Source: Alphaproteobacteria bacterium
Lineage (GTDB): Bacteria; Pseudomonadota; Alphaproteobacteria; Micavibrionales; Micavibrionaceae
Assembly: GCA_021775915.1 (NCBI GenBank)
Contig: JAJFGW010000039.1
Coordinates: 1-64,000 of the forward strand
Direction of reading: 5' to 3'
Length of the DNA: 64,000 nucleotides
Shown here one piece after another: positions 37,886 to 59,830 of the stretch. The notes below the pieces were generated by a model. The model searched no databases. It had not been told where the DNA came from and saw only the letters and a list, made by a program, of their open reading frames with translations. Position 1 is the stretch's first letter. The number at the start of each line of letters is the position of its first letter. Made by a program: the position numbers and the translations under genes.

Positions 37886-38872
37886 TTAAGTGTTTGATTT
37901 TAAACAATTAATCAGGAGGGTTATATCATCCGGTATAGGAGACTCAAAGCTCATCACCTCTTCTGTCAGAGGATGAACAAAGCTCATTTTCCACGCATGC
38001 AGGGCCTGGCGCGGGAAATTAAGGACTTGCGCCGCTACTTCCGCGCTATAATCCCCTTTTTTCAGCAACGATTGCCCCCCATTACGCTGCAAGCCATATA
38101 AGGGGTCACCAACCAGCGGATAGCGTATATGCGCCATATGCACCCTGATCTGGTGCGTCCTGCCGGATTCAAGCTTACAATTCATTAAACTAGCTGTTTC
38201 ACCGTAACTTTCAACAAGCTGATAATGCGTGACTGCCTCACGGCCATTCCTATGGTTTACCGCCATTTTCAAACGATTACCCGGATGCCGCCCGATAGGC
38301 TGGTCAACATGCCCCTTACTATTGCGCGGCTTCCCCCAGACCACAGCCCTATAATGCCGCCCCAGCGTTCTATCAGAAAGCTGGCTTGAGAGCGCTTGAT
38401 GCGCCTTGTCTGATTTGGCCACTACAAGCAAACCGCTTGTGTCTTTATCCAGCCGATGAACAATCCCCGGACGCCGGACACCACCAATCCCGGACAGGCT
38501 ATCACCACAATGATAGAGCAGCGCATTAACCAATGTACCATCGTGGTGCCCCGCTCCCGGATGAACAACCAGCCCGGCAGGTTTATTAATCACAAGAAGC
38601 GCTTCATCTTCGTAGAGTATATCCAGCGAAATATTTTCCGGTACCGGCGTGTCATCAACCGGCGGCGGTACAACCAGAGACAAAGCCATCCCTTCTTTCA
38701 CCTTGAGAGAAGGGTCGGTACAAATTTCATTATCAATATGAAGACGGCCCTCCAGAATAAGGGCTTTAAGACGGGAGCGGGATAAATCCTGAAAACATGT
38801 GGCCAGCATTTTATCCAGACGCTGGCCGTGGTCTTCCGTTTGTACGCTATATATCAGGCTGTTTTCACTCAC
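37886..38872 (-). CDS. rluD: RluD/RluC-type large-subunit pseudouridine synthase
   Basis: About 328 residues from the GTG at 38872, two bases past the stop of the upstream gene. N-terminal S4 domain (RLDKMLATCFQDLSRSRLKA, LILEGRLHID) and RluA-family catalytic domain: INKPAGLVVHPGAGH and the signature GIVHRLDKDTSGLLVVAKSD with the catalytic Asp. LESGRTHQIRVHMA follows. RluD modifies helix 69 of 23S rRNA; assignment to RluD rather than RluC is by overall look. An upstream GTG at 38935 would overlap the neighbour. Confidence 0.9.
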   Translation of the reverse strand: MSENSLIYSVQTEDHGQRLDKMLATCFQDLSRSRLKALILEGRLHIDNEICTDPSLKVKEGMALSLVVPPPVDDTPVPENISLDILYEDEALLVINKPAGLVVHPGAGHHDGTLVNALLYHCGDSLSGIGGVRRPGIVHRLDKDTSGLLVVAKSDKAHQALSSQLSDRTLGRHYRAVVWGKPRNSKGHVDQPIGRHPGNRLKMAVNHRNGREAVTHYQLVESYGETASLMNCKLESGRTHQIRVHMAHIRYPLVGDPLYGLQRNGGQSLLKKGDYSAEVAAQVLNFPRQALHAWKMSFVHPLTEEVMSFESPIPDDITLLINCLKSNT

Positions 38873-38874
38873 AA

Positions 38875-40266
38875 TCAGCGGCGCCCCAAACAAGGGTCTT
38901 CGTAAGGGTCCAGCGCTGTCGCGACAAAAACCCACCCTATATGAACCGGTGCAGAAGGAACTATCGGCGCACTCTTTTCTTCCTCTGATTTCTCGGTAGC
39001 GGCAAGCCCTACAACAACAATAGGCGTCTCCTCATCTTCCAGCTCGCCCATATCATCCTCAATAACGGCGGTAAAAATACGCTCACCATTCCAGCCGGGA
39101 ACGTAATCCGTTGCCCTTGCCCCCAACCCTTCGTAATACGCTTCGTCCTGTATCAATATGCCGCGCGGCGATAAGGTCAACATACGCAGATGATTACGAC
39201 CACTACTATCTTCTGTGGCTTTGGCATTCATCATCAAAACCATACGCCCGTCTTTCTGCGTCACGATCCAGTTTCCGGTCAGCTCGTAATCAGGTCGCCG
39301 GAAATAACGCTGCCAGCGCGGCTCACCCAGCGCATCTATCGCCATAACCCATGACGATACCGGGCCGTCATCATAAGGCTCCGAATCCCCCGCCAGAACA
39401 AATCCCTGCCCTTCGACCGTATATCCGGGAGACATCGCAGCATGACGAAAAATAGAAGACGCGCCACGCGGATATGTTCTCTGCCAGTGGACAGCACCAT
39501 CAAAACCCAGTTTCATCGCCCAGCCCGCCATACGCCCGTCATCCATACGTATAGTCCCGACCGCGAGGTAATTTTTTTCATCAATGGGCATCAAATTATA
39601 CAAGACATTAGGAATACCGGGCCTGTAAGCGCGCCGCCATAACAACTCCCCTTGCGGCGTAAAGCGCATAAGAACACCGTTTTGGTCCTCTTCATCATCG
39701 CGGCTTATCGCATGAAGCAAGGCTATAAAGCCGGGCTGTTCCACCGATGAAGAAAGGCTGAGGCTTTTATAATCAAAAACAGAGTCTTTGAGAATTTTTT
39801 CCCTTTTATAATTTCCGTCCCCGTCATACCAGCTCAGCCGCGCCCACTTTTCAGCCCGCCCAGCGCCGCCACGTATGTTGGAAATAGCCACAAACTCATT
39901 ACCAAGCTGAATCATCTTAATGGGCTCTTCAGCATCTTTTGCCGGAAAGCTTGTTTCTTTTAAAGCCCGTCCACGCCGGTTCAGTTCAACAAGAACAATT
40001 TCCTCCGGCCTAAAATCATCCTTTGACAGCCGCCGCCCAATAGCCATAACCGTTCCGCCATCCTGCGGAATACCTGAGCCGAGCTGAACCATACTATCTC
40101 TAATGCCATATTTAGCGTCCCAGACCGTAGGGAAGCCAAAGGTTGGCGGCCGCAATGTAACAATAGTCTCATAAAGCGTGTCACACATCTGCGCCCTTGA
40201 TGAATGGGGAAACAAGACTAATGTGAAAAGGAATGCTATAAAAAGAAATCTTGAAATGCGGGTCAT
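38875..40266 (-). CDS. secreted beta-propeller-like protein, unknown
   Basis: 463 residues with a signal peptide ending SSRAQ (about residue 25). The body has repeating beta-blade-like segments with aromatic anchors: GELLWRRAYRPG, GAVHWQRTYPRG, GEPRWQRYFRRPD, each followed by a glycine-rich loop, like PQQ/WD-type propellers. The C-terminus is Glu-rich then ends in a hydrophobic stretch and GRR. No catalytic motif seen. Directly upstream of rluD, and divergent from the GT4 gene. Confidence 0.65.
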   Translation of the reverse strand: MTRISRFLFIAFLFTLVLFPHSSRAQMCDTLYETIVTLRPPTFGFPTVWDAKYGIRDSMVQLGSGIPQDGGTVMAIGRRLSKDDFRPEEIVLVELNRRGRALKETSFPAKDAEEPIKMIQLGNEFVAISNIRGGAGRAEKWARLSWYDGDGNYKREKILKDSVFDYKSLSLSSSVEQPGFIALLHAISRDDEEDQNGVLMRFTPQGELLWRRAYRPGIPNVLYNLMPIDEKNYLAVGTIRMDDGRMAGWAMKLGFDGAVHWQRTYPRGASSIFRHAAMSPGYTVEGQGFVLAGDSEPYDDGPVSSWVMAIDALGEPRWQRYFRRPDYELTGNWIVTQKDGRMVLMMNAKATEDSSGRNHLRMLTLSPRGILIQDEAYYEGLGARATDYVPGWNGERIFTAVIEDDMGELEDEETPIVVVGLAATEKSEEEKSAPIVPSAPVHIGWVFVATALDPYEDPCLGRR

Positions 40267-41988: not shown

Positions 41989-42606
41989 ATGACATTTTTT
42001 CAAAAATTAAGATGTGTGGCCATAAGCGCTGTTTTTGTTTTTGCGACCTGTGCTGGCACATTGCAAGCACAAGCTCAGAGCGGGGACAGACTGCCTCCAC
42101 CGGATGCCGCAACAATTTCCATTGATTCGGAATTGTCTTCTACAGAAGAGACACACCCGCCCTTGCGCCTGACACCTGATAAATCACGGATATTGACGCT
42201 GGATAAAAACATCGAACGCGTTATCGTTGGTAATGAAGCCCACCTGAATATCCTGATGGATACAGCGAAGCGACTAATTGTAGTGCCTCGCATACCCGGC
42301 GCCACTCACTTTACCCTGCTAGGTGAAAACGGAGAGATCATTATGCAACGCCACGCCATTGTTGGTAGCGCACAAGAAAAGTATGTGAGAATAAGAGAAA
42401 CATGCAGGGGCGCTGACGGCTGTATGCCCGTAAGAATGTTCTATTGCCCGGGCGCATGCCACGAGATTGCTATCATCGGCGAGAATAATACCGCGTTCAG
42501 TGGAAGTATCGCTTCTGCGCCAAGCGAAGAAAATGTTAATAGTGGCCTACCGCCAACCATGCCAATCGGTGGGCCATCAGGCGCCGCTCCAGAGGATGAG
42601 CAATAA
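41989..42606 (+). CDS. pilus-assembly N-terminal-domain protein (RcpA/CpaC N-domain-like)
   Basis: 205 residues, signal peptide ending QAQAQ (about residue 30). Residues about 55-125 match the short beta domain found before secretins in CpaC/RcpA: LRLTPDKSRILTLDKNIERV, then VVPRIPGATHFTLLGENGEI. It has no secretin domain. Four cysteines in the C-terminal part (ETCRGADGC, FYCPGACHE) likely form disulphides. Overlaps the tadD-like gene (TAATG). It may be a periplasmic helper of the Tad secretin. Confidence 0.8.
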   Translation: MTFFQKLRCVAISAVFVFATCAGTLQAQAQSGDRLPPPDAATISIDSELSSTEETHPPLRLTPDKSRILTLDKNIERVIVGNEAHLNILMDTAKRLIVVPRIPGATHFTLLGENGEIIMQRHAIVGSAQEKYVRIRETCRGADGCMPVRMFYCPGACHEIAIIGENNTAFSGSIASAPSEENVNSGLPPTMPIGGPSGAAPEDEQ

Positions 42607-43430
42607 TGATGAAATTTTCCGGAAAAATTCTAACGATTGCTTTTGTCCTTGCCACGTCTGTATCGCTTTCAGCTTGTAGCTCAACGGCCCCCGGCCAAAA
42701 AGAAAGAGCTTCAAAAATAGAAACCGTCATGCAAAGGGCTGCCGCAGAGGCTAAAAGTCAGGGTAATATACAGCAATCGCTTGAAATTTTAGAAAAGCTC
42801 TATAAAGGGCAAAGCAACGATCCGGATGCGGCTATGAAATACGCCCGCGCCCTACGGGAAGAGGGATATTTCAACAGAGCCTCTCTTGTTCTTGCTCCCT
42901 TTGCAACAGATGAAGACATCGAAAATGCAGATCTAATTATAGAATATTCTGCCCTGCTGGCCGCCATGGGTAATTATACAGACTCTGAAGAAGCCGCACG
43001 CAGAACCGTTCTTCTTGCTCCTGAATCAGGAAAGGCCTACCACGTTCTTGGTGTTGCTCTTGATGCGCAAGGGTATCACGAACAAGCACAAGTGGCCTTT
43101 GAAAGGGGACTTGATTACTGGGAAGGCGACCCCAGCCCTATCCTTAACAATATCGGCCTAAACCTTGCGGCCCAGGGATTTCTTGATGAAGCCATAGAAA
43201 CGCTTCGCAAAGCGCTTGATACAGCGCCAAACCGCGTAGAGATAGAACGTAACCTACGCATCGTTTCAGCCCTGCAATATCAACCGCCCAAAAGAGGGAC
43301 GCGTCTTGTGCCTAAACCGTCGAAGAAGCCAGATGCGGCGGCGATAACGACAGAGACCACTGCTGAGGTTATAGAAGTCATGGAAGCTGTAGAGGTTATA
43401 GAGGTTGAAGAAGAGCCTGCCGCTGAATAA
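42606..43430 (+). CDS. tadD: TadD-like TPR lipoprotein
   Basis: 274 residues with a lipobox SLSAC (Cys24). Tetratricopeptide repeats occupy about residues 45-215 (GKAYHVLGVALDAQGYHEQA, PSPILNNIGLNLAAQGFLDE). TadD acts as an outer-membrane pilotin-like factor for Tad pilus assembly. The C-terminus is a Val/Glu/Ala-rich low-complexity tail. Coupled to the upstream pilus N-domain gene and convergent with tadC, 23 bases away. Confidence 0.85.
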   Translation: MMKFSGKILTIAFVLATSVSLSACSSTAPGQKERASKIETVMQRAAAEAKSQGNIQQSLEILEKLYKGQSNDPDAAMKYARALREEGYFNRASLVLAPFATDEDIENADLIIEYSALLAAMGNYTDSEEAARRTVLLAPESGKAYHVLGVALDAQGYHEQAQVAFERGLDYWEGDPSPILNNIGLNLAAQGFLDEAIETLRKALDTAPNRVEIERNLRIVSALQYQPPKRGTRLVPKPSKKPDAAAITTETTAEVIEVMEAVEVIEVEEEPAAE

Positions 43431-52871: not shown

Positions 52872-54425
52872 TTAACTTCGGATGTGAATCTGACTTAACT
52901 CACGACTGATTTTCTCAAAAACACTAATCAGATCATCCTGAGACGGCGCATCGTAATACTGGTCTTCCGATGTAGCGCAGCTCCTGTAATAACCCTTCGT
53001 CGTATCACTAATATTGGAGTAAAATGTAACGGTATAGATCAGTACATTCTGTGCCTTTAAAGCCTCACAGGTTTCAACAAATCTTTCATTATAATCGGTA
53101 ACATTGATTTGGTTTTTTTGCGCATCTCCAAAATATGAGTACTGACTGTGTCTGGTATTATTACCATCAGTCATCATAATAATAGCCTTACGCCATTTCG
53201 GATCATCCCACGCAGCGCCTTCATCAAAAGGAGCTTCCGGCGAAATAAGACGACGCCCCCAGATCATACCAACATTACCCAGCGTATGACCATGCGCAAG
53301 CATGTCATCCACACGAGACAACAAGGAGTCACGATCACTGGTTAGTGGCATAACATAAGCATAAGGGCAGCCGTAATTAGGGACACGGTCAAGACGCCAT
53401 TCATAATCCCCTGTTCCTTCATATCTCCTACAGCGCGTCCGTCCTCTCCAGTCAGTATAGGTCTCGACACATACCCGCTCCTCCTGAACATCACCGGACA
53501 TGTAAATATCCCACGGCCCGGTATAATCATCCTCTACATCCGTTGGATAAGGGTCGTTGTTACTTAAGGTCGCGTTCCAGCCATGACCGTCCAAAATACC
53601 GCCGCTCTCCCAGAGCTGACCATAAGAGTTTTCAGGGTCTATAACATGATCGGCATTGGGGTCATAATTCTGAGAGTGGTGAGCCACAACACAGCCGTAC
53701 CATCCCTCACCACTATTGTGATCTGTCGTATAATTAACCTCAGGCGGCAGAGTAACAAATGCCTCCGGGTTACCGCGCGGACTACCATCAGGGTTAAGCC
53801 CCAGACCATAATTCCCGATGCGCACAGAATTAGCATAAGGGACAAGGCCCATTTTTACGAATTCAGGATTGCTCGTCGCATCAAAAAGAATATTAACAAA
53901 GCTCGTGGTCGCATCACGCAAAGCACCAATATTATTATTCGTGCTCATAGATCCGGTATTATCAAGCACGAGAACCACTTCAAGACCGCGTACTTCACGA
54001 TGAACAATTGTCTCACAATAAATAACCATCTCATCTATGCCAAGAACGCGCATAAATGACGTGTCGTATCGCGCATGAGCGGAAACAATAACATCATCCG
54101 CATCAACCACTGCGCTAAGATCATAAGTAAAGCCCAGCGCGTCCTCCGGATAATTCGCATCAAAGAAATCTGTTACACGCGCCACTATCTCAGCTTCATC
54201 AGCAGAAGATGCGGCAGCAGCAAGCGCAGAGGCGTCAAGAGAACTACAAAGGCGCTGGCGCACATTATAACTTTGCGCAAGATCAAGCGCCATACCTGTA
54301 GAGCCCACCAAAACCGGGGCCAAAACAGCAAAAACAACAGCAATCGCCCCTGCTGTACAAACAACATAAGACCTTATTTTATCTCTGAATTTTTGCCCTA
54401 CCTTATTTATAATATTCCCAGACAT
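52872..54425 (-). CDS. tadG: TadG-like VWA-domain pilus protein
   Basis: About 518 residues. TadE/G-type N-terminus with one membrane helix (CTAGAIAVVFAVLAPVLVGS, residues about 22-42) and ALDLAQSYNVRQRLCSSLDA. A von Willebrand A domain follows with the MIDAS motif in VVLVLDNTGSMS near residue 160 and ATTSFVNILFD; a long Tyr/Asp/Gly-rich insertion interrupts it, and the domain resumes at KAIIMMTDGNNTRHSQ. The ATG at 54425 is chosen for its GAGAGG and normal N-terminus; the frame runs on to 54539 within the spacer and tadF end. Confidence 0.88.
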   Translation of the reverse strand: MSGNIINKVGQKFRDKIRSYVVCTAGAIAVVFAVLAPVLVGSTGMALDLAQSYNVRQRLCSSLDASALAAAASSADEAEIVARVTDFFDANYPEDALGFTYDLSAVVDADDVIVSAHARYDTSFMRVLGIDEMVIYCETIVHREVRGLEVVLVLDNTGSMSTNNNIGALRDATTSFVNILFDATSNPEFVKMGLVPYANSVRIGNYGLGLNPDGSPRGNPEAFVTLPPEVNYTTDHNSGEGWYGCVVAHHSQNYDPNADHVIDPENSYGQLWESGGILDGHGWNATLSNNDPYPTDVEDDYTGPWDIYMSGDVQEERVCVETYTDWRGRTRCRRYEGTGDYEWRLDRVPNYGCPYAYVMPLTSDRDSLLSRVDDMLAHGHTLGNVGMIWGRRLISPEAPFDEGAAWDDPKWRKAIIMMTDGNNTRHSQYSYFGDAQKNQINVTDYNERFVETCEALKAQNVLIYTVTFYSNISDTTKGYYRSCATSEDQYYDAPSQDDLISVFEKISRELSQIHIRS

Positions 54426-54453
54426 GACTCTATCCTCTCTCTTTTTTAAATAT

Positions 54454-54990
54454 TTAATCCCTGCCGACAACGGCAGTTTTTCTGCCCCGGCCAAATGAAA
54501 CTTCGCTAAAATCAATCGCATTAATAATAGTCCCGGCAAAAGAAGGCGTGTAAGTATAAGTAGTCTGAACAGCTATAGCGCCACCGCCAGGCCCGCCAAG
54601 ACCAATCGTTCTGCCGGACAAATCCGGGTCACCGCCACCACCGGCACTATCTTCCTGCCAGCGCACCACCGGATTACCGTCATCATCAAAAGTAACACTG
54701 ACAACATCAATGACCAGCGTATCAATGGGAAAGGGCATTAAAGCCAGCCGGGCGGCCTGATAGGCTTGCGCCAACTCCTGATCGTTAACAGACAACTGCC
54801 GGCCAATCAAATCAGCCGCAATTTGCGAAGCAGCGAGCGTCTTTTGGTTGGCAACGATACCATTACCCAAATCCCACAGCCCGAGCATCATCAAAAACAA
54901 CAAAGGAAAAACAAGGCCAAACTCAGCGGCAGCACTAGCCTCTTCGTCTGTTGTCCATCTCTGGACTTTATAATTTACATTACACAGCAT
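54454..54990 (-). CDS. tadF: TadE/TadF-type pseudopilin (second copy)
   Basis: 178 residues. Prepilin-like N-terminus ASAAAEFGLVFPLLFLMMLG with the Glu at the expected place, then DLGNGIVANQKTLAASQIAADL. The distal part is beta-rich with a Gly-rich patch (GLGGPGGGAIAVQTTYTYTP). TadE/F are minor pseudopilins cleaved by TadV and needed for pilus assembly. In line with tadE and tadG. Confidence 0.87.
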   Translation of the reverse strand: MLCNVNYKVQRWTTDEEASAAAEFGLVFPLLFLMMLGLWDLGNGIVANQKTLAASQIAADLIGRQLSVNDQELAQAYQAARLALMPFPIDTLVIDVVSVTFDDDGNPVVRWQEDSAGGGGDPDLSGRTIGLGGPGGGAIAVQTTYTYTPSFAGTIINAIDFSEVSFGRGRKTAVVGRD

Positions 54991-55002
54991 TATTTTCTTT
55001 TC

Positions 55003-55554
55003 CTATACGCTACATGTAGGATCTGTAACGTCAAAATCATAAGGCTCCGCTTGAAAAACAACCGTTGCCATCTGTAATCTTCTATTTCCCGAGTAATTGC
55101 TCCACATATCACCAAAAAACGGCGTTATAAACTGAAAGCGATACGTAATACGCACCATGGCCATACAGCCGGCGGTAATCTGATCCAGTTCAAATAAATC
55201 GGGGGGAGTGATGTTGCCATCCGCATCAATTTGCGGCGTCAAATCATCATCGAAATCATCAAGTTTCTGAACCTGGTATTGAAAATTATCACAGTCAAGA
55301 AAAACCCCGGCATGGTCGCAAAGCTCATCTAAAAAAACAGTAAGGGGGTCGGCGTTCGCCTGCAACTGCCCCGTCCGTATGGTCCGAGAGGCATCAGCCA
55401 CAGCACCTTCTAGCAGTGACCCCGAAACAAAGAAAAGAGCTAACTCAATAAGGGCGATAGAGCTAAGCATAAAAGGAAGCGCAAGCAGGCTAAACTCAAT
55501 AGCCGTCGTCCCATCGTCCTTTTTCACCCACCTATTAAACATTTTCATGTGCAT
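55003..55554 (-). CDS. tadE: TadE-type pseudopilin
   Basis: About 183 residues. N-terminal KKDDGTTAIEFSLLALPFML carries the processing site and conserved Glu, then ELALFFVSGSLLEGAVADAS. The C-terminal half contains Cys pairs and an aromatic YRFQFITPFF segment. Several ATGs (55554, 55548, 55542) are possible; the first lies within a perfect 7-base hairpin arm (GCATTTG / CAAATGC at 55551-55567), which may hide it. Twelve bases from tadF. Confidence 0.87.
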   Translation of the reverse strand: MHMKMFNRWVKKDDGTTAIEFSLLALPFMLSSIALIELALFFVSGSLLEGAVADASRTIRTGQLQANADPLTVFLDELCDHAGVFLDCDNFQYQVQKLDDFDDDLTPQIDADGNITPPDLFELDQITAGCMAMVRITYRFQFITPFFGDMWSNYSGNRRLQMATVVFQAEPYDFDVTDPTCSV

Positions 55555-55709
55555 TTGATTCAAATGCTCCCATACCTATAAACATAAAAAAACACGCCTT
55601 CAAAAGAGACATGCCGGGCACCCATACCCATTTTCAATAGTAACTACAAAAACCTAAAGAAGCGTTTATTACACAAATAATTTTATTTAAATTTCAAATG
55701 CTTACAGGA

Positions 55710-56255
55710 TTATTCCGCTGTTTTCTTATCATCACCTTCATCAGCCTTCTCTTCAGCATCATTTTTGTCTTGTGTTTCAATAGGAAAGCCATAAGCGTCC
55801 AAATGAACCTCGCCGGTCACCTCAACCCCCCAACGCTCAACCATCTTTTCCTGACGCCGTTTAATATCCTCAATTCTAATGGCTCCGCGTTGAACCATCA
55901 TTGTTCCAACAAGTCCCGACATAGCCCAGCTAATCAGATACCCGACACCTGCCGCCGCATACATAACACTCATAACCCGCGGGTCCGAAATAATGGTTAC
56001 AGCTATGTCAGGCGTATGACCCTTACTCCACAAATCAATTAAAAAAGGCGTGCACCCGGCTAAATTCATAGCCCCCACAGTAAGGGCCTTCGTACCCTTG
56101 CCGCTTCGATCCACAACAGCGGCAACAACTGTAGGGATCATACCCATCAACAAAACAATTGTTGTCGGCATAAAAATGACTGCCGTAAACAGACTGACGA
56201 TCCCCATCAATCGGCTTTTACCACTAGCTTTTTTTCTTCTTACGCCCTTCGCCAT
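55710..56255 (-). CDS. membrane protein in the Tad locus, unknown
   Basis: 181 residues with a basic start (AKGVRRKKASGKSRL), about three or four hydrophobic segments between residues 17 and 120, and an acidic Asp/Glu/Lys-rich tail after residue 155. No family recognised. Its ATG immediately follows the stop of the pseudokinase gene (TAA-ATG), so the two are coupled and probably function together, on the same strand as tadE-F-G. Confidence 0.75.
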   Translation of the reverse strand: MAKGVRRKKASGKSRLMGIVSLFTAVIFMPTTIVLLMGMIPTVVAAVVDRSGKGTKALTVGAMNLAGCTPFLIDLWSKGHTPDIAVTIISDPRVMSVMYAAAGVGYLISWAMSGLVGTMMVQRGAIRIEDIKRRQEKMVERWGVEVTGEVHLDAYGFPIETQDKNDAEEKADEGDDKKTAE

Positions 56256-58394
56256 TTAAAAAATCGCAGCCTCCGTAAAATGCATAAACGCAAAACTCAA
56301 AATAATAATCCCGGCTAAAACCCCCGAAACAATGGCCGCAATTTCCTGACCTGTTTCCTTGCCAAAAATTTCAGGGTTTTCCATCTTTTTTCTAAGCTCT
56401 AAATTCTCTTCACCAAGCGCTCTATATTCTTCCATGGCCTTTCTAAAATTCAAAAAATCGCGCTGCTTAATATCATTCTTATCAAGGAGCGTTATCATTT
56501 TGACTAAATCGCCTTCCTCTTTCATTTTTTCTATTTTTTTACGTATGCTCACTTGTAACTCACGGTCATGATAATGTTCATAAACCGGTTCCAAAATATC
56601 AACGATCCACCCTGCAATACCGGGAAACATCTCCATACGTGATCTTTTTTGAATAGTCGCGAGCGTCTTGATGTTGCCAAGAATCTTTCTGTGATATTCC
56701 TCGGCGCCCAGCTCTACAAAAAAAGGATCTATCATACGCCGGTCCTTGACCGAGAGAAAAGCAGCAATATGCCTATCTATAAACAAGTCAGGCCTATTCG
56801 GCTTTTCTGCAATATCCTCAAAAGCATACATAATATCTTCCGGATTCCGCACATAGTAACCTTCTAGTTTTTCGCTAATACACCGACATTCAGGGTTGAG
56901 GAAATACAAACAACGCTCGACACCGTAACCCATAGTATTCTGACGCAAAAAAGCGCGGCAACTATCAAATCTTGAAGTCAGATTACCAACATCAAACCTT
57001 CCTTCCTGTTGCACGCCCAACCAAAACATAATCAATTGTTGGTTAATAATATCAACGAACGGCATTAGATCTTTTTTTAACATGTAGGTTTCCGCAAGGG
57101 CGCCCGCAAACCCCTCCGGATTAATTCTCATTCCCTTAAACCTGATCGGCGCGTCAACATCCAAAGCCACCGAAACACGGGGAAGCAAACGATCCCAATA
57201 CCCTGGCCCCCTCCCATCTTCTCGCGCTTCCTCAAGCGCTTTTTCGAGACGCCCTCCGGCTAAATTATCTTCTAACGAACGGCTAATCCACTGCTCAAGA
57301 GTACCATCATCAATCATCTGCATCGCTTCTGACTGATCAGCTTCAAGGTCCATTGCCAGCAATACCGATCTAAAATAACGCTCTCCATTAAAATGAATAG
57401 GCCTGCTCGCCTTTTGCTTCTTCGCGCTCTGCTTAGGACTTAAACGCTGGCCATCCAGCCAGGACTCAACTTCATCAAGAGTCCAGCGCTGCACTCTGTC
57501 ATCGTATAGCAGGCCTCTAAGTAACTCCAAAATAGACCCCGTAAAACGGTCCTTACCGGTCAAGGATACATAGCTGCCAAGCTCTATCTTCTGCCGAATA
57601 ACATCCTCATCACTCATACCAGCGAGAGGATCCTTGCTCCGTAAAATCATGACAAGTGTTACACCAAACGCATATATATCGTCTTCAGACGTCCCCGGCC
57701 CTTTTGCTATGGGATCAACCATCGCCCGCTCAATAGGTTCAAACATGGCGGGCTGCAGATAAGAAGTCGGAGTCGAAAGACATTCACCGAGCATCACACG
57801 ATCAACACCATCTTTCGAACCAGCTCCAAATATATTCATAGGATTAATAGCGCCATGAACCATATCTACATCTCTTAAATCCATCAGTACATTAATCATA
57901 GGCACTACAATGCTATTCATAACAGCATCCTGCTTCCAACCCAGGCCGCCCTCTTCAATATTTTTCATGATCGGTTTTGCAGATACGCTCTCATAAACAA
58001 AAACATATCTTTCCTCCTGCGCAGGGGGCCAATAGACAACACCGGACGCCACAAGGTTAATTAATCCCGAACTCATAATGCCGGAAAATTTTCCAGCATC
58101 CGCAGACCGCGGCACCAAGTGATTTTCACAAACCAGAGCAAAACATCCCTCATGAGACTGGCCAGAAGCTCTAGTGGCGTAAGCGAGAGAAGGCCCTCTA
58201 TCCAGATGAGGAATCCGCTTATCGACCAAAATTTCCATTTCACCGCTTAAAACGGCAATATTGGACGGCTTGCTCTCATTAACCTTTTTATCATCAGGAT
58301 TTTCAGTAGAAGTACCGTCCTCCTCAACAGGAAGAGGCGGCTCCTCTGCACCTTCAGTACCTTCAGCGCTCTGTGACATTTCGTCTGTCATCAT
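56256..58394 (-). CDS. membrane-anchored kinase-fold protein lacking catalytic motifs (pseudokinase)
   Basis: About 712 residues. Residues 1-45 are acidic and disordered. About 60-330 look like a Ser/Thr kinase fold: MVHGAINPMNIF near residue 177 sits where HRDLKPxN belongs, LGECLS where DFG belongs, EDDIYAFGVTLVMILRSKDP as the alphaF region and DDRVQRWTLDEVESWL at the domain end. The glycine loop, catalytic Asp and DFG Asp are absent. A long helical region follows and a membrane helix lies at the C-terminus (AAIVSGVLAGIIILSFAFMH). ATGs at 58394 and 58391 are the likeliest starts; neither has a strong ribosome-binding site. First gene of the run leading into the pseudopilins. Confidence 0.75.
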   Translation of the reverse strand: MMTDEMSQSAEGTEGAEEPPLPVEEDGTSTENPDDKKVNESKPSNIAVLSGEMEILVDKRIPHLDRGPSLAYATRASGQSHEGCFALVCENHLVPRSADAGKFSGIMSSGLINLVASGVVYWPPAQEERYVFVYESVSAKPIMKNIEEGGLGWKQDAVMNSIVVPMINVLMDLRDVDMVHGAINPMNIFGAGSKDGVDRVMLGECLSTPTSYLQPAMFEPIERAMVDPIAKGPGTSEDDIYAFGVTLVMILRSKDPLAGMSDEDVIRQKIELGSYVSLTGKDRFTGSILELLRGLLYDDRVQRWTLDEVESWLDGQRLSPKQSAKKQKASRPIHFNGERYFRSVLLAMDLEADQSEAMQMIDDGTLEQWISRSLEDNLAGGRLEKALEEAREDGRGPGYWDRLLPRVSVALDVDAPIRFKGMRINPEGFAGALAETYMLKKDLMPFVDIINQQLIMFWLGVQQEGRFDVGNLTSRFDSCRAFLRQNTMGYGVERCLYFLNPECRCISEKLEGYYVRNPEDIMYAFEDIAEKPNRPDLFIDRHIAAFLSVKDRRMIDPFFVELGAEEYHRKILGNIKTLATIQKRSRMEMFPGIAGWIVDILEPVYEHYHDRELQVSIRKKIEKMKEEGDLVKMITLLDKNDIKQRDFLNFRKAMEEYRALGEENLELRKKMENPEIFGKETGQEIAAIVSGVLAGIIILSFAFMHFTEAAIF

Positions 58395-58513
58395 ATCAAG
58401 TGGAATCCATAGCAGAATTAACAAAGAACGCCGCAAGCACTCGCGACGCACGCCCCATTGTAATGTTCTTTACGGAAGAAGTAAAACAACCGCTGGAAAG
58501 AAGTATGTACCGG

Positions 58514-59830
<1,317 letters not shown>

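Follow-up and report, generated by a model that had tools for sequence, protein, structure and literature searches.

A predicted membrane-anchored pseudokinase and its co-occurring membrane partner in Alphaproteobacteria, beside a Tad locus in one lineage

What is the role of a degenerate kinase that is encoded together with a small membrane protein directly ahead of a Tad pilus locus? The question arises from the window, the whole stretch of 64,000 nucleotides of alphaproteobacterial DNA analysed here. The initial annotation described a membrane-anchored protein with the outline of a kinase domain, coupled to a membrane protein and followed by tadE-F-G, and proposed that this undescribed pair, which standard Tad loci lack, could control pilus assembly. 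The kinase-like protein is referred to here as PSK. The features of the locus are the following:

58514..59806, minus strand: purA, the gene that usually precedes the pair in the class (neighbourhood comparison)
56256..58394, minus strand: PSK, gene of the predicted membrane-anchored pseudokinase (712-residue open reading frame from the ATG at 58394; kinase-fold model)
57447..58265, minus strand: predicted pseudokinase domain of PSK, residues 44-316 (model, fold search and profile)
57834..57857, minus strand: HGAINPMN at residues 180-187, where kinases have HRDLKPxN, with the catalytic Asp replaced (sequence and homologue conservation)
57780..57788, minus strand: GEC at residues 203-205, aligned with DFG (conservation and alignment to kinases)
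56475..57419, minus strand: C-terminal helical domain of PSK, residues 326-640 (model and conservation)
56280..56345, minus strand: C-terminal transmembrane segment of PSK, about residues 684-705 (model helix 674-708 and hydropathy)
55710..56255, minus strand: obligate membrane partner, 181 residues (open reading frame, zero gap to PSK)
55591..55615, minus strand: terminator-like hairpin with a T run, between the partner gene and tadE (hairpin search)
52872..55548, minus strand: tadE, tadF and tadG, outside the PSK-partner module (Pfam TadE/Tad matches and distribution)

The coupled reading frames, of 712 and 181 residues, are found where they had been placed and meet at TTT TAA ATG with zero gap. 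An in-frame GTG at 58451 is a possible alternative start of PSK to the ATG at 58394, and a promoter-like pair is located upstream of the gene at 58485-58457. The tad genes do follow on the same strand, though only after 161 nt containing the hairpin with its T run: tadE occupies 55548-55003 (minus strand), tadF and tadG come next, and other Tad genes lie beyond. Adjoining the Tad cluster at 41989-43430 (plus strand) are two open reading frames, the second of which is TPR-like and by eye resembles a TadD-type lipoprotein.

Kinase fold and degenerate motifs of PSK

The AlphaFold2 model of PSK, built with 70 homologues in the alignment, has a mean pLDDT of 89.5 and a pTM of 0.83. Residues 1-42 are disordered, residues 44-316 adopt a protein kinase fold, as the initial annotation had suspected from the sequence, and residues ~330-640 are mainly helical, followed by a long helix and a C-terminal transmembrane helix. 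In a VIA fold search of the PDB, in which rows within one Z unit count as ties, the best match of the kinase part is WNK3 (Z 23.1 and rmsd 2.9 for 253 residues); PknA, PknB and the pseudokinase domain of TYK2 come just below (Z about 21). The profile of PSK also matches solved kinases with an E-value of 7e-12, so that fold search and profile both assign a bilobal protein kinase fold.

The replacement of HRDLKPxN by HGAINPMN and of DFG by GEC, already recognised in the initial annotation, was confirmed. In the profile alignment, A182 corresponds to the catalytic Asp, N184 to the catalytic-loop Lys, N187 to the metal-binding Asn and E204 to the Asp of DFG. Conservation was assessed in two partly overlapping sets, one of 99 order- and class-level sequences and one of 70 mostly named sequences. 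The catalytic Asp, replaced by Ala182 in the window, is absent in 98/99 and 70/70 homologues; the commonest residues at position 182 are Ala, Asn, Ser and Gly. The window PSK has no beta-3 Lys, and a Lys at positions 86-89 is found in 1/99 and 0/70 homologues; the family carries V/I/L-C at beta-3 and E/D-C at DFG. Several other positions are retained, namely the metal-binding Asn187 (94/99 and 69/70), Glu or Asp at residue 204 (91/99 and 70/70), His180 followed by Gly/Arg (95/99 and 68/70), and Arg96 (93/99).

Because the catalytic Asp occurs in only 1/99 and 0/70 homologues and the beta-3 Lys is missing, PSK is classified by its motifs as a pseudokinase across the whole family, the loss being no local accident. 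Assignment as an active Ser/Thr protein kinase was rejected on these two residues; the Asn and the acidic residue at DFG are as expected for such an enzyme. Judging from these motifs, PSK very probably cannot carry out conventional protein phosphorylation.

The retained Asn187, Glu/Asp204 and Arg96 could nevertheless point to nucleotide binding or to unusual catalysis. WNK3, the closest fold match, is itself a kinase without the usual beta-3 Lys. PSK might accordingly be an enzyme with atypical chemistry, performing either WNK/POMK-like phosphotransfer with a rebuilt active site or AMP transfer in the manner of SelO. The latter is conceivable because SelO, whose kinase fold lacks the usual Asp, transfers AMP and carries the motif HGVMNTDN, as summarised in a 2025 review of bacterial pseudokinases (PMC12599244). 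Both families have an HGxxxxxN catalytic loop and an acidic DFG position. This likeness is one of motif only, as the PSK family lacks a conserved Lys and has other domains. The absence of the beta-3 Lys, the replacement of the catalytic residue at position 182 and the location of many of the most conserved residues outside the kinase domain all argue against catalysis, and an atypical enzyme is regarded as unlikely.

The most conserved part of PSK is the helical domain (residues 326-640), with the motifs GxGxER...Y...C.S and DRHxAAF. Its most strongly conserved residues include G491, E493, R494, Y497, C505, S507, D540, R541, H542, A545, F546, Q582 and G628. The domain belongs to no Pfam family, and comparison with PDB sequences gave no convincing match, the best being designed armadillo repeats (E 0.056). 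Among 398 genomes of the phylum, all highly complete and possibly a biased sample, it was found in this class only. The domain is likely to be the target-binding face of the protein. The proposed membrane anchor was borne out by model and hydropathy, since the C-terminal transmembrane segment is the sole hydrophobic segment in the PSK family profile.

The loss of canonical motifs might also mark a decaying relic without function. Many residues are, however, invariant across very diverged homologues, and PSK is present in 56/58 genomes of the window's order, most of which measure about 2 million bases. Decay is therefore considered highly improbable.

The membrane partner and the neighbourhood of the pair

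The partner model is confident, with a pLDDT of 88.8. No match was obtained in a fold search against the PDB, nor any stable Pfam or PDB sequence match. Matches to EMC3, DAGK and SLATT were scattered over 1-2 of 62 members and were dismissed as chance. In the family profile, positions 17-42 and 101-113 are hydrophobic, and a moderately hydrophobic stretch near position 64 contains Asn. We infer from this pattern two transmembrane helices with a re-entrant stretch between them.

PSK and its partner co-occur far beyond chance. In a class sample of 385 genomes, PSK is found in 131, about a third of the sampled Alphaproteobacteria, the partner in 132 and both in 130, making the membrane protein noted beside PSK in the window an obligate companion. 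The genes are adjacent in 39/40 loci of the window's order, with a gap of usually -4 to 40 nt, and in the majority of 79 named loci, and they stay together where the neighbourhood changes. In a few loci, only one of the two genes was detected. Pairwise distances of the two proteins correlate with r 0.95, and with 0.74 after removal of the purA distance (Mantel p 0.001), a correction that is incomplete because purA evolves slowly.

Multiple copies occur in several genomes. Locus L129 contains a complete PSK-partner-PSK-partner array, and genome G333 (L236) has two copies of each gene within about 5 kb; pairing is retained in both tandem arrangements. Genome G071 (L223, L224, L225) encodes one PSK and four partner homologues, three of them distant from PSK, and the homologue in L225 adjoins a large hybrid histidine kinase. 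Extra PSK copies at unrelated places, with no partner detected alongside, are found in L122, L126 and L234. No convincing functional partner was recognised among the neighbours of the stray copies (YchF GTPase, DUF3141, DUF4424, purD/folD and others).

Named carriers include Micavibrio, Azospirillum, Magnetospirillum, Thalassospira, Thalassobaculum, Rhodovibrio, Pelagibius and a SAR116 genome. The pair also occurs in records titled Asaia, Rhizobium, Stygiobacter, Candidatus Marinimicrobia and Mesoflavibacter (L168, L171, L176, L205, L215, L217), titles that are doubtful as these are metagenome assemblies.

The usual gene order outside the window's order is serC-serA-hisZ-purA-PSK-partner, with rpoH and rluD beyond on the opposite strand; the annotation of Azospirillum thermophilum lists hisZ, purA, PSK, partner and rpoH. 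In two other families of the window's order (L059, L060, L061, L062, L067, L068), an aldehyde dehydrogenase, in L062 one of the succinate-semialdehyde type by NCBIfam, replaces purA before PSK. The old linkage to purA and rpoH could point to a sensor for purine metabolism or stress: purA is near the pair in 71/80 named and 26/43 class loci, always upstream, and rpoH in 47/80 and 27/43. Yet the linkage has been lost in many loci that still hold the pair, the rpoH match in the window's genome lies on a different contig, and long-lived housekeeping neighbourhoods need not mirror function. Such a sensor thus appears improbable.

Relation to the Tad locus

A regulator of Tad pili, in the form of a general module recruited in the window's order to govern the assembly of the pili encoded next to it, is the explanation closest to the initial annotation. 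Within the order, its expectation that orthologues occur near tad genes held: the pair adjoins two or more tad genes in 23/40 loci, and 24 of the 56 carriers have TadE at a distance of 10 kb or less. The adjacency is no one-off, because it recurs in three families of the order, and it is sometimes present where the purA linkage is lost. TadE itself is encoded in 53/58 genomes of the order, and across the class PSK and TadE are weakly associated, with an odds ratio of 1.9 that ignores phylogeny.

Against this, TadE lies elsewhere in 28 of the 56 carriers and is absent in 4, counts in which contig breaks may hide some linkages. Outside the order the expectation failed, as two or more tad genes are near the pair in 0/43 fetched loci. 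Tad genes were found in 9/80 named loci, which are Micavibrio records or alphaproteobacterial assemblies close to the window by PSK identity, and no TadE match was obtained for 62/131 PSK carriers of the class sample. In 18 loci, the gap between the partner gene and tadE measures 129-209 nt. A T-run hairpin of -7 kcal/mol or lower was detected in 8/18 of these gaps, and in 1 on the other strand; shuffled gaps yielded a mean of 1.5 and a maximum of 4 hairpin sites in 40 runs. Because of the long gaps and the terminators before tadE, the sequences suggest that the pair is a transcription unit separate from tadE where the two are adjacent.

Given the distribution, the carriers without TadE and the gaps with their terminators, a Tad-specific module was rejected as a general explanation, and the proposed control of piliation is not supported. 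The absence of the pair from standard Tad loci, as initially noted, is supported. As a reading confined to the window's order, recruitment for Tad control is given a low probability and is at most a lineage-specific possibility. In the best reading, the pair is no part of the pilus machinery and stands beside the Tad locus in one lineage. In the window, rluD (37886-38935) is found on the far side of the Tad locus, an arrangement that would fit an insertion of the Tad locus between the partner gene and rluD.

Comparison with known systems and proposed role

Searches of protein families identified PSK only as kinase-related. Pfam returned a weak Pkinase match alone, for the window protein and for 64/70 members, and NCBIfam and PADLOC gave weak matches centred on the kinase part. 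Those to LanL (NF038150) and MAD6 (NF047741) cover only the kinase region of the window PSK and recur in 69/70 and 54/70 members, at scores far under the curated cut-offs. A class IV lanthionine synthetase was rejected, given 26.6 bits against the NCBIfam cut-off of 650 for LanL, the rest of which is unmatched. With the bacterial Ser/Thr kinases PknA and PknB and with TYK2 JH2, PSK shares the kinase fold over residues 44-316, but it lacks the catalytic Asp and the beta-3 Lys and adds the helical domain and the C-terminal anchor.

Two pseudokinase families were excluded on the definitions given in the 2025 review (PMC12599244). The GLW pseudokinases of proteobacteria have GLW in place of HRD and LLLL/W in place of the Lys, whereas PSK has HGx/HRx, with the conserved His180 followed by Gly/Arg. 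The DYD family has Arg for the beta-3 Lys and a DYD motif, as opposed to V/I/L-C and E/D-C in the PSK family. No family with the motifs of PSK appears among the family definitions of that review, as distinct from the kinase atlas underlying it. EssB/YukC of type VIIb secretion, described there as a scaffold in a membrane machine, is likewise a membrane pseudokinase on a single transmembrane helix. It differs in organisms, motifs and partners, and is likened to PSK by description. Membrane-anchored pseudokinases are thus already known; measured against these definitions, what is new is the way in which motif, helical domain, partner and synteny are combined. The literature search, which took in few subscription papers, yielded no paper that names the pair and no experiment on any member, and within the families and literature searched the pair is undescribed, as had been supposed.

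By analogy with EssB/YukC, the anatomy of PSK would best fit a scaffold or switch tethered to the membrane. The evidence leans, if not strongly, towards an undescribed, vertically inherited complex of a pseudokinase scaffold and a membrane partner, with a general role and a position beside the Tad locus in one lineage. In the predicted topology, a single C-terminal helix would hold PSK to the inner membrane, and both the pseudokinase and the helical domain would lie in the cytoplasm. The former may serve as a scaffold or as a ligand-controlled switch, as other pseudokinases do, and the helical domain is proposed to bind the main target through its conserved face, at about residues 489-546. The small polytopic partner, presumably through direct binding to PSK, would anchor the complex or relay its state to the membrane. 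This role would be general, without need for Tad pili, and the Tad locus would have been placed beside the pair later in the window's order.

The distribution of the pair corrects the idea of a Tad-specific regulator. It is kept in about a third of the sampled Alphaproteobacteria, including small genomes and cultivable genera such as Azospirillum, Magnetospirillum and Thalassospira, where existing annotation offers only a protein kinase and a hypothetical protein. On balance, the tail-anchored pseudokinase and its co-evolving partner probably form a core membrane complex of many Alphaproteobacteria, whose role would be that of a scaffold or switch in an envelope process. Laboratory strains that carry the pair make a conserved and probably non-catalytic kinase readily accessible to genetic tests.
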